A stretch of DNA of 32,723 nucleotides, taken from Gallionellaceae bacterium (GTDB lineage Bacteria; Pseudomonadota; Gammaproteobacteria; Burkholderiales; Gallionellaceae). The notes under the pieces were generated by a model. It ran no database searches. It was not told the DNA's origin and worked only from the letters and a program-made list of their open reading frames with translations. A program made the position numbers and the translations under genes. Shown here piece after piece: positions 17,638-32,644 of the stretch. Where the stretch lies: positions 1 to 32,723 of the forward strand of contig VIKH01000026.1 in NCBI GenBank assembly GCA_008080515.1, in the 5' to 3' direction. Positions within the stretch are counted from its first letter, which is position 1. Every line of letters begins with the position of its first letter.

Positions 17638-17773
17638 AGTGCTGCAACATGCTTGCGCCGCCTGATCTTCGAGTTTCGCGGGCCTGTCTTTGAGGTAACC
17701 CATCCCCCTCCCTCTCCGGTATCATGCCTCCCTCAAGATTATTCAGCGCTGCCCGTTGCAAGCTGCATCCCTC

Positions 17774-19879
17774 ATGACCTCCGAAAATTTTCTCGATCTT
17801 CCCCCTCTATTGAGCGCCCAAGGCACGGTGCGCCTGCCCGGCTCGAAGAGCATTTCCAACCGCGTGCTGTTACTGGCGGCATTGTCCGAGGGCGCGACCG
17901 AGGTGCGCGATCTGCTGCATTCCGACGATACCGCGCGCATGCTGGATGCGCTGCGCACTTTGGGCGTTGCAGTGGAGTTGTTGGGCGACAACGCCCTTCG
18001 GCCAGACTCAGGACAGGCTTACCGCGTGACGGGTTGCGGTGGAACCTTCCCGGTGAAGGAAGCGAAGCTGTTCATCGGCAATGCGGGCACCGCGTTCCGC
18101 CCGCTGACGGCGGCGCTGGCCTTGGCGGGCGGGCGTTATGAGTTGTCGGGTGTACCGCGCATGCACGAGCGGCCCATCGGCGATCTGGTGGATGCGTTGC
18201 GGCAGTTGGGGGCGGGTATCCGCTACCTCGGCAATGAGGGTTTTCCGCCGCTGGAAATTTTTCCTGCGAAGCTGTCGGGAGCGCTGGTGCAGGTGCGCGG
18301 CGACGTGTCCAGCCAGTTCCTCACCGGACTGCTGATGGCGCTGCCCTTGCTGGATCGCACGGTGAGGATTGAGGTGGTGGGCGAGCTGATTTCCAAGCCG
18401 TACATCGGGATCACGCTGGCGATGATGGCGCGCTTTGGCGTGGCTGTGGAACGGCAGGAGTGGCAGAGTTTCGTTGTCTCCGGCGGCCAGCGTTACCGCA
18501 GTCCCGGCACGGTTTATGTGGAAGGCGATGCCTCGTCAGCCTCGTACTTTCTGGCTGCTGGTGCGGTAGGCGGCGGGCCGGTGCGGGTGGAGGGCGTGGG
18601 GCGCGACAGCGTGCAGGGCGATGTGCGTTTTGCCGAGGCGCTGGAAAAGATGGGGGCGCGCATCACGATGGGCCCGAACTGGATGGAGTGCGAAAGGGCG
18701 ATGCCGGAGGCGTCAAGCATATTTCAGCCATCCTCTTGCGGGGGGGCGAGCGCACCGGAACCCGGCAGGCTCAAGGCCATAGATCTCGATTGCAACCATA
18801 TCCCCGATGCGGCGATGACGCTGGCGGTGGCAGCGCTGTTCGCCGATGGCACCACGACGTTGCGCAACATCGCCAGTTGGCGCGTCAAGGAGACCGACCG
18901 CATCGCCGCGATGGCAACGGAATTGCGCAAGCTCGGCGCGGCGGTGGAGGAGGGTGCGGACTACCTCCGAATCACTCCTCCCTATGCCGTTCGTGGTGAG
19001 CTTGTCGAGCCACCTGCCATCAGCTACGTAGAAACCGTCCACCCTTCGACAGGTTCAGGGCGAACGGTTTTGTTGCATGCCACCATTGATACCTATGACG
19101 ACCACCGCATGGCGATGTGTTTCTCGCTCGCCGCGTTCGGCGGAGCGGGCGTGCGCATCGCCGATCCCGGTTGCGTGGCGAAAACCTTCCCCGATTATTT
19201 CGAGCGCTTCGCGCGGGTGGTCAGGGCGGTGCCGGTGATCGCGATAGACGGGCCTTCCGCGTCCGGCAAAGGCACCGTGGCGCAGCTTGTGGCGAAGGCC
19301 TTGGGCTTCCGTTTTCTCGACAGCGGCGCCTTGTACCGGCTGTTGGCGCTGGCGGCGCAGCAGCGCGGCGTGCCCCTCGAGGCGGAAAATCGCCTGGCCG
19401 AGCTTGCGGCAAATCTGGATGCGCGCTTCGACGAATCCGGCGCCTGGCTGGATGGCGCGCCGGTCGGCGACGAGCTGCGTTCCGAGCAATGTGCCGACAT
19501 GGCGTCGAAAGTGGCGGCGTTGCCCGCAGTGCGCGCCGCGCTGCTGGACAAGCAGCGGGCGTTTCGCCGGGCGCCCGGCCTGGTCGCGGACGGGCGCGAC
19601 ATGGGTTCGGTGGTGTTTCGGGATGCAGCCCTGAAAGTGTTCCTCAACGCCAGCGCGGAAGCGCGTGCGGAGCGGCGTTATAAGCAGTTGATAGAAAAAG
19701 GAATGAGTGCTAATATCGCGTCCCTTTTGCAAGAGGTGCGCGCGCGCGACGAGCGGGATTCGCGCCGTAGCGTGGCACCGCTGCAACTGGCGCCGGGAGC
19801 AGGCCTGCTCGACACCACCGACCTGACCATCGAGCAGGCGGTGCAGGAAGTGCTGGCACGCTACCGTACCGTGCGTTGA
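17774..19879 (+). CDS. aroA-cmk: Fused EPSP synthase / cytidylate kinase
   Basis: A 701-residue fusion. Residues about 1-475 are AroA (shikimate pathway, makes EPSP): [51 protein letters not shown] and TYDDHRMAM are intact. Residues about 480-700 are Cmk (phosphorylates CMP/dCMP): GPSASGKGT is the P-loop, then DSGALYRLL and [10 protein letters not shown]. Such fusions occur in other betaproteobacteria. ATG 17774 is chosen over TTG 17756. AroA carries additions: a 27-codon palindromic repeat translated just before the TYDDHRMAM loop (about residues 405-431), a Ser/Gly/Pro-rich stretch around [18 protein letters not shown], and a short NALRPDSGQ insert near residue 75. None breaks the frame. 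Confidence 0.95.
18987..19067. repeat. Palindromic repeat inserted in frame within aroA
   Basis: The left arm starts CCGTTCG and contains TGAGCTTGTCGA (18987-19010); the right arm (19043-19067) is its imperfect inverse, ending CGAACGG. Aligned arms match at CCGTTCG, TGA and TGTCGA. The 81-base element equals 27 codons and encodes peptide with RGELVEP and HPSTGSGRT, which the EPSP synthase family lacks at this place. A half copy occurs at 32090-32115. Confidence 0.85.
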
Positions 19880-19888
19880 AGTAATGGC

Positions 19889-19940
19889 CCCGTAACGCCC
19901 ATCGTTACGGGTTGTGCAACTTACCCCCGCCGCAAGCGGG
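19889..19940 (+). promoter_or_regulatory. Two stem-loops in the rpsA leader
   Basis: CCCGTAACG/CGTTACGGG (19889-19897 with 19903-19911, 5-base loop) and CCCGC/GCGGG (19926-19930 with 19936-19940) lie between aroA-cmk and rpsA. Neither has a T-run of terminator strength. S1 mRNA is autoregulated through leader structure in E. coli and rpsA here has only a weak GGA ribosome site, so a leader role is plausible but unproven. Confidence 0.4.
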
Positions 19941-30976: not shown

Positions 30977-32078
30977 CTATTCGTTTTGTGCCACGCGCTG
31001 TCTCGCCAGCGCCGGGTTCTGGGAAAAATAGCGCTTGATGCCGCCCAGAATCGCCTGCGCCAGCTTTTCCTGGAAACCGGGATCATTCAGCTGGCGTTCC
31101 TCGGTCGGGTTGCTGATGAAGGCAGTCTCCACCAGCACCGAAGGAATGTCGGGCGATTTCAGCACGGCAAACCCGGCCTGTTCGACAAAGCCACGGTGCA
31201 GGGCGTTCACGTTGTCCAGCTCGTTCAGCATATACTTGCCCAGCTTGAGGCTGTCGTTGATGGTGGCAGTCTGCGACAGATCCAGCAAGGTTCGCGCGAG
31301 GTAGGGGTCTTTCACTGCAATGTTCACCCCGCCGATCAGGTCGGCCTCGTTTTCTTTCTTCGCCAGCCAGCGCGCGCTGGCGCTGGTGGCGCCGCGCTCC
31401 GACAGGGCGAATACCGAAGAGCCGCGCGCGTTGGGCTTGACGAAAGCATCGGCATGGATGGATACAAAAAGGTCGGCATGTGTCCGTGACCAGAATGCGG
31501 GTGCTGATCTCCGGGATGTTTTTTGCGGGTGCGGGAGGCGGCTGTGTGGCAAGCGGCGCTGAACCGGCAAGAGCGGGTGCGCTGGCCGCAGCAGGCGCCC
31601 GGTCTTCGCCCGCAACCGGTGTTTCCGCCAGCTTGCTTTCGGATTTGAGCGCCAGCGCCATCAGCGGATCGGCGGATGCGGCGGGATAAACGTCCAGCAC
31701 CAGCCGGTGGCCGTATTCGCCGACCGGTTTGAGGCTGAACAATTGCGGTTTGGCTTCCGTTTTCAGGTCCAGCACCAGCCGCACGACGCCCGGCTTGAAG
31801 CGCCCCACCCGCGCGCTTTGGATGTAAGGGTCAGCGTTGCCGATTTTGCCGGCAATCTCGTTCAGCGCGCCGCCGATCTCAACTTCTTCCAGGTCTATGA
31901 CCAGGCGCTCCGGATGTTGCAGGGTAAACAGGTGGTGGCGGATCGGCTGTGCGGATTCCAGCGTCAGGCGGGTGTACTCCTGCGACGGCCAGATGCGCGC
32001 GGAGCTGATGGCGACAGCCGCCTGCACATGGGGCAACCAGAGCAGGCACAGCAGGGCGGTTAGTGATCCGGAACGCAT
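30977..32078 (-). pseudogene. amiC: N-acetylmuramoyl-L-alanine amidase AmiC, internally deleted and frameshifted
   Basis: AmiC cleaves septal peptidoglycan in the periplasm. From ATG 32078 the first frame gives a signal peptide (LLCLLWLPHVQA) and an AMIN domain (about residues 20-130, with ARIWPSQEYTRLTLES), then a Pro/Ala linker to NIPEISTRILVT. There, at about 31480-31490, the frame changes. The other frame resumes as HADLFVSIHADAF and runs to the normal end at 30977, with the catalytic Glu in VLVETAFISN. About 75 residues are absent between the two, including the DxGHGG and REK motifs that carry two zinc ligands. So the enzyme should be inactive if the sequence is right. An assembly error is possible. 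Confidence 0.85.
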
Positions 32079-32089
32079 TATCCAAGAAT

Positions 32090-32115
32090 CCGTTCGCATT
32101 GAGCTTGTCGAAATG
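32090..32115. repeat. Half copy of the CCGTTCG...TGAGCTTGTCGA repeat
   Basis: CCGTTCG-CAT-TGAGCTTGTCGA matches the left arm of the repeat inside aroA at 19 of 22 positions. No opposite arm is nearby. It lies in the amiC upstream region, between amiC and tsaE. Confidence 0.7.
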
Positions 32116-32155
32116 TGAATGGGAACGGCAATCAAGTTCAAACCGTGCCGGATCA

Positions 32156-32644
32156 TTAGTCTTGCAATAATTTCAAACATTCCCCGGCTATTGCAGTGTT
32201 GGCATTGAGGGTGATGTTGCGGCCAGCGGGCAGGATCTCGAAGCGGATTTCCAGATCAGCCTCGGGCAGCAAGCCATGCGCTTGTTCCGGCCACTCCACC
32301 AGACAAATATTACGGCCATCGAATTCGTCGCGGAAACCCGCAGCTTCCCATTCTGATTCATCGCGGAAGCGGTACAGGTCGAAGTGGCAAAAGTGTAGCC
32401 CGCCTATCCGGTACTGCTCAAGCAGCGTGTAGGTCGGGCTTTTCACGCTCCCGGCGAAACCCAGCGCGCGGAGCAACGCGCGCACCAGCATAGTTTTGCC
32501 CGCACCCAGATCGCCGCGCAAATACACCACCATTCCCGGCTTCAGGATTGTGGCCAGGCGCGCGGCAAACTCACCGGTGCCAGCCTCGTCGGCCAGCAGC
32601 AATGTTATTCGGCTATCATCCGGTTTATGCAAAGCGGAACCCAA
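32156..32644 (-). CDS. tsaE: tRNA t6A biosynthesis ATPase TsaE
   Basis: A 162-residue P-loop ATPase (YjeE) that supports TsaB/TsaD in making threonylcarbamoyl-adenosine on tRNA. LRGDLGAGKTMLVRALLRALG is the Walker A region, SPTYTLLEQY follows, and HFDLYRF and LVEWPEQA are the family signatures. Start is uncertain: TTG 32644 or a nearby TTG (32632). The longer start overlaps the start of queG on the other strand by 18 bases. The order tsaE-amiC on one strand is conserved in many proteobacteria, where mutL often follows amiC; here the TPR gene follows amiC, and mutL is at the other edge of the window. Confidence 0.92.
   Translation of the reverse strand: MGSALHKPDDSRITLLLADEAGTGEFAARLATILKPGMVVYLRGDLGAGKTMLVRALLRALGFAGSVKSPTYTLLEQYRIGGLHFCHFDLYRFRDESEWEAAGFRDEFDGRNICLVEWPEQAHGLLPEADLEIRFEILPAGRNITLNANTAIAGECLKLLQD

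Follow-up and report, generated by a model that had tools for sequence, protein, structure and literature searches.

REPINs are pairs of inverted REP hairpins lying close together, present in many copies and mobilised by RAYT (TnpAREP). Other small repeats are found within coding sequences. In Rickettsia, palindromic elements (RPEs) of about 105–150 bp are described as lying in frame in genes for conserved enzymes (PMC10969869, PMC2229807, PMC3767692), and an RPE-bearing Gmk is presented there as translated and active, with an altered substrate affinity (PMC2229807). ERIC, Correia/NEMIS and other MITEs with open frames, about 100–200 bp long, are likewise outlined as fusing in frame to genes (Delihas, PMC2229807). 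An earlier note on the locus treated here had taken the Rickettsia elements as a precedent and had called the same behaviour little described in a betaproteobacterium; the precedent stands, but in-frame palindromes are in print beyond Rickettsia, a paper on intragenic GTAG/CGTC REPs naming several species and among them Thauera, a betaproteobacterium (Di Nocera et al. 2013, PMC3733652).

The repeat family described below, one copy of which lies inside aroA in a stretch of 32,723 nucleotides from a Gallionellaceae genome (the window), resembles both RPEs and GTAG/CGTC REPs. With RPEs it shares the trait of in-frame insertion of palindromes into conserved-enzyme genes as well as orthologues that carry inserts at the same locus; by description it is set apart, RPEs measuring about 105–150 bp and belonging to Rickettsia, whereas the paired genic copies here span 57–139 nt and belong to betaproteobacteria. 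With GTAG/CGTC REPs it shares short dimers in ORFs, many of them adding 20–30 residues, and hosts that include DNA-repair and tRNA-synthetase genes (PMC3733652). What sets it apart is that the bases beside CCGTTCG vary among the listed copies, so that no such constant tag is seen when judged by eye, and that a frame bias has been measured for the present family, whose genic copies are locked in phase. Paired inverted hairpins in many copies also recall REPINs, but neither the counts nor the flanks of PF01797 genes show an association with Y1/RAYT. ERIC, Correia/NEMIS and other MITEs are small mobile in-frame repeats like the present ones, though described at about 100–200 bp. Searches of the open-access literature with four core strings of the repeat, subscription papers lying outside their scope, turned up 10 papers, none of them on the subject as judged by titles and the starts of abstracts.

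An in-frame palindrome spread through core proteins recurs, then, in a betaproteobacterial family. Natural enzyme pairs with and without the insert become available, a measurable frame bias offers a means of telling peptide-level selection apart from target choice, and caution is advisable with VRPELVEG- and STGSGRT-type peptides in predicted proteins, which can be repeat-derived.

The aroA-cmk gene and its insert

The window comes from a 2.9-Mb draft genome in 183 contigs (G000). The host gene is a fused aroA-cmk, a point absent from the earlier note: its product matches the NCBIfam equivalog PRK11860 at 1072.5 bits (cut-off 943), and Pfam places EPSP_synthase at residues 15–477 and Cytidylate_kin at residues 488–696 (P0001). 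The features are as follows.

17774..19879, + strand: aroA-cmk, bifunctional EPSP synthase / (d)CMP kinase, host gene of the insert; start codon assigned in the present analysis
17995..18018, + strand: REP-derived in-frame piece in aroA-cmk, 24 nt, missing from the earlier note
18987..19067, + strand: REP dimer of two inverted units, 81 nt or 27 codons, in frame in aroA-cmk
18987..19019, + strand: first unit of the dimer, arm type TGG, 3′ arm diverged
19020..19034, + strand: spacer separating the two units
19035..19067, − strand: second unit of the dimer, arm type CCC, read through from the + strand
19091..19117, + strand: conserved TYDDHRMAM segment, 3′ of the insert
32090..32112, + strand: core of a half copy of the REP unit, near the 5′ end of the minus-strand ORF 31083–32180

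The dimer begins with CCGTTCG and ends with CGAACGG, and its arms match at 17 of 22 bases, which bears out the palindrome that had been reported at 18987–19067, in frame and just 5′ of TYDDHRMAM. Because the dimer has a whole number of codons and is open in one frame, aroA reads through it: the reading frame remains intact and the predicted AroA-Cmk is lengthened by 27 residues. The TGA that would be expected in frame from the consensus ACCATGAACGG is missing in the first unit because the 3′ arm has diverged. As a lone inverted repeat, this palindrome is not exceptional, shuffled sequences folding as well or better in 14/200 cases as RNA and 18/200 as DNA, and a repeat-finding search reported no palindrome at the site; it is membership of the family that lifts it above chance. 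Two further lines were set aside. The excess of near-perfect inverted repeats across the window (23 against a shuffle mean of 0.3) is uninformative on the aroA copy, whose 17/22 arms fall below the threshold, and the three Rfam matches over 17700–19900, all under the gathering score, were treated as chance.

The 24-nt piece at 17995–18018 is probably older; the other two genomes of the genus share it, as does G007, which belongs to a different genus. AroA holds a further insert at window positions 18700–18760, in which no REP core was seen and which G002 matches in place, though not closely in sequence, while G001 is without it. The AroA of G001 (L439) has in turn an insert of its own, about 32 residues long and lying between RFGVKV and EWQSF, which the other two genomes of the genus do not have.

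A half copy had also been noticed near 32090–32115. It is real, with its core at 32090–32112, and is part of a longer repeat that recurs elsewhere, the repeated flanks extending about 29 nt to the left and about 47 nt to the right. The 45 codons that precede it score as non-coding, so the half copy probably lies upstream of the true start of the minus-strand ORF 31083–32180.

A dispersed family of paired hairpins

The unit of the family is a 33-nt hairpin, CCGTTCG-NNN-TGARCYTGTCGA-A-N′N′N′, and the dimer consists of two such units in inverted orientation. In G000, the half-site TTCGNNNTGAGCTTGTCGAA has 149 matches at three mismatches or fewer, against 20 for the same pattern read backwards, and the stricter exact half-site CCGTTCGNNNTGARCYTGTCGAA has 79 against none for its decoy, in agreement with the claim that the repeat belongs to a dispersed family. 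The exact half-site is found in 48 of 61 genomes of the bacterial family, G000 included, and a survey of the phylum with the exact pattern only found it in 3 of 120 genomes, namely G000 and a further two, in which it has 70 and 115 copies. The arm bases covary: in 233 of 261 units all three are complementary, where shuffles average 40 and reach 56 at most, and 13 complementary arm types occur. Among the 160 elements outside the in-frame set described below, 71 are forward–reverse pairs and 80 are single units. Complementarity of the outer flanks exceeds the shuffle maximum at positions 1–5, a signal confounded by related copies, and several G000 copies sit in longer repeats of about 120–135 nt. 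Many dispersed short palindromes, a hairpin with compensatory changes and inverted pairs are thus all present, as in REPs and REPINs. At least nine contigs of G000 (C2, C72, C90, C98, C128, C160, C161, C162 and C183) have a copy within about 110 nt of one of their ends.

Mobilisation by RAYT is not supported by the counts or flanks of PF01797 genes. Across the 61 genomes, counts of Y1 transposase (PF01797, which also covers IS200-type enzymes) and of REP correlate weakly (p=0.06, rho 0.24), PF01797 genes are absent from five genomes that have 10 or more REP units, and a REP unit lies in the flanks of only 1 of 34 fetched PF01797 loci.

Copies in frame within genes

The census took in the stretches around the listed G000 sites and the listed sites of other genomes (109 stretches) and yielded 185 elements, 70 in G000 and 115 elsewhere, 22 of them at contig ends. 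Genes were called from codon scores, and an element was called in frame from open frames together with the codon scores of its flanks, the element itself being left unscored. On this basis, the count of genic against intergenic copies that the earlier note had proposed gives 25 of the 185 examined elements in frame inside coding-scored genes, 10 in G000 and 15 elsewhere. According to Pfam and NCBIfam, the hosts are AroA-Cmk, PurL (2), RarA/MgsA (3), MutS (2), Mfd (2), CysS (2), MmeI-type enzymes (2), type ISP enzymes (2) and a dipeptide-type ABC ATPase (2 inserts), with single copies in a FadB-like dehydrogenase, an MFS transporter, EarP, an IF-2B-family protein, a mannosyltransferase-like protein, a U32 peptidase and a class-III aminotransferase. 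Known domains match across the insert or on both sides of it in 21 of the 25 by our reading. Three calls (L178, L340 and L354) are supported by codon scores on one side, and for L384 no position was found for the second matched stretch. One element of the first census (L150) was dropped as a chance match within a gene.

An in-frame copy in the AlaS gene of G000 was left out of the 25, its right flank scoring −0.13, below the cut. The ORF concerned (L138:7447–8943, − strand) has 499 aa, against about 880–910 in many others, and the protein no longer matches its relatives after the insert, which suggests a frameshift or an assembly error.

Genes broken by the element were sought through the coding score of 180-nt flanks, on both sides and on one strand. 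None was found among the 185 elements by this test, which is about two-thirds sensitive; because only 16 of the 25 in-frame copies already known are picked up by it, broken genes could be missed. The 19 elements that pass this common coding-flank test comprise 16 in frame, none in broken genes and 3 between neighbouring genes, and 26 elements have a single coding flank.

A preferred reading phase

The explanation that we hold to be likely is that a REP dimer inserted in a variable loop of AroA, that the gene reads through it and that selection shapes the genic copies. A hairpin-forming dimer would have entered the loop between the ITPP and IDTYDDHR segments, and the gene, reading through it, would yield a predicted enzyme longer by 27 residues; the elements would move by means of an enzyme and insert in all frames, purifying selection then retaining those that lie in a permissive loop and are read in the frame that is tolerated.

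In 20 of the 21 genic elements that have a forward unit, the first such unit gives VRxExVE (xCC GTT CGN NNT GAG CYT GTC GAA), the one exception being an ABC ATPase insert read PFGLNLSK. Chance would favour the other phase, PFxxSLS, because in the remaining elements that frame is open more often (155 of 239 readings) than the VRxExVE frame (109 of 239). The preference has a binomial p=2e-6 on multi-unit availability, and when each gene family is counted once, the two ABC sites separately, the ratio is 13:1 (the collapse being our own). The reverse units (n=22) are spread over STxS (15), FDxL (3) and RQA (4). A TGG-armed lead unit occurs in the aroA copy alone among the 21 genic elements, against 61 of 239 other readings.

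That the lock reflects target choice, the insertion enzyme preferring sites at a fixed codon position, rather than selection on the peptide, is a reading that we regard as unlikely, though it deserves to be taken seriously. It would fit four elements (L282, L306, L340 and L354) in which the forward unit is phase-locked even though the reverse unit falls in another frame, and it would fit the small difference in hydropathy between the avoided frame (0.18) and the used frame (−0.14), a difference that lends weak support to purging of a hydrophobic peptide as the cause. A preference for one preceding base is, however, not visible, G, A, T and C all occurring just 5′ of genic copies.

Empty sites and recurrent loops

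The two other genomes of the genus have an AroA 86–90% identical and without the 81-nt segment. In a search over 30 genomes of the family AroA was matched in 28, the loop could be read in 27, and the dimer is in the AroA loop of G000 only; the segment is absent from the 26 other readable genomes, and the two solved-structure AroA alignments that were printed skip the insert residues, so that the alignment check suggested in the earlier note goes the way it had expected. Among 80 further AroA loci, the best of at least 597 GTDB stretches, 50 loops could be read by the same regex, and one of the 50, from a Gallionella MAG (L038), contains one REP half at this loop, with the reading DPSAGSGRTE. 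The length of the AroA loop varies across the family, and because it varies otherwise too the loop looks tolerant; the position of the insert in a surface loop, as had been proposed, is suggested here by that variation in length.

Several loops carry the element in two or more genera. For RarA, 24 of the 26 family loci had a readable loop, two of them with the element (G000 and G004), and the RarA of G034 also carries it (L345). The RarA of G000 is closer to its insert-free sisters (92–95% identical) than to the insert-bearing protein of G004 (81%), which points to separate insertions. PurL linkers were read by regex in 6 of 26 loci, two with the element (G000 and G013) and four with other repeat-like sequence, most of the remaining loci aligning only outside the insert. 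AlaS loops were read in 15 of 26 loci, and the two with the element, G000 and G012, have it at one site in nearly identical copies; CysS, MutS and Mfd each have two hits, in matching loops. Gene conversion may also account for shared loops, above all that of AlaS.

A genome of the same order and of another family (G079, 4.8 Mb) behaves alike. Among 19 elements sampled on its 4.39-Mb contig, 6 are in frame, in RecG, HtpG, ValS, an FAD-dependent oxidoreductase, urease alpha and UvrD, and the forward units are in the VRxExVE phase in 6 of 6. One NCBIfam match spans the insert in five of the six hosts, UvrD being matched in two stretches. At the urease locus (L492), the urease frame was retained and an antisense ORF set aside. 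In a further genome (G084), two in-frame candidates out of 26 elements were discarded, neither ORF matching NCBIfam at 1e-30.

The list of hosts invites the idea that the inserts are useful, the extra loop changing how DNA-repair and translation enzymes work or are regulated and being kept by positive selection: RarA, MutS, Mfd, RecG, UvrD, AlaS, CysS and ValS are all hit, and a similar speculation for repair genes appears in Di Nocera et al. (2013, PMC3733652). Sister species nevertheless lack the element in AroA, RarA and AlaS, metabolic, transport and restriction genes are hosts as well, and unrelated inserts fill the same PurL and AlaS loops, pointing to tolerance. We consider usefulness improbable; for the AroA insert, neutrality or a slight cost is most likely.

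An assembly or binning artefact, in which a repeat was wrongly joined into aroA, could draw on the G000 contigs that start or stop next to a copy; it is nonetheless highly improbable, as the frame in aroA is kept exactly, other assemblies carry the element in the same loops and six in-frame hosts lie on a single contig of G079. A native origin of the segment, as an old stretch of AroA that is palindromic by chance, would be compatible with a loop of varying length across the family but can practically be dismissed, for the segment is absent from the readable relatives and BLAST matches it to another genic copy (L170) at 77% over exactly the 81-nt unit pair.

Beyond insertion into a tolerant AroA loop, which we take as the likely account of the locus, a wider reading can be offered tentatively and is rather doubtful: the elements may form a RAYT-independent, phase-locked REP family, predicted to be translated, that has an insertion enzyme of its own and recolonises the same core-enzyme loops across genera, and so may be a second RPE-like system, in betaproteobacteria.

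Other repeats within the same proteins

Some hosts of the element contain further repetitive sequence. The FadB-like ORF (L170:109–2838, − strand) has repeated PPLQKGG-type peptides, apparently another in-frame repeat, and at L155:791–2923 (+ strand) MmeI-type domains, a DUF559 match and repeated GRG-type peptides share one open frame. A second repeat (GGAACTACTAGCCATTCGAC..., read DGTTSHST...QVAGY and variants) is in frame in the AlaS of G000 (L253), where it lies within the REP loop, and in the PurL of G001 and G006 (L202 and L204); an exact 20-mer of it occurs in 4 of 443 loci, some of which overlap.
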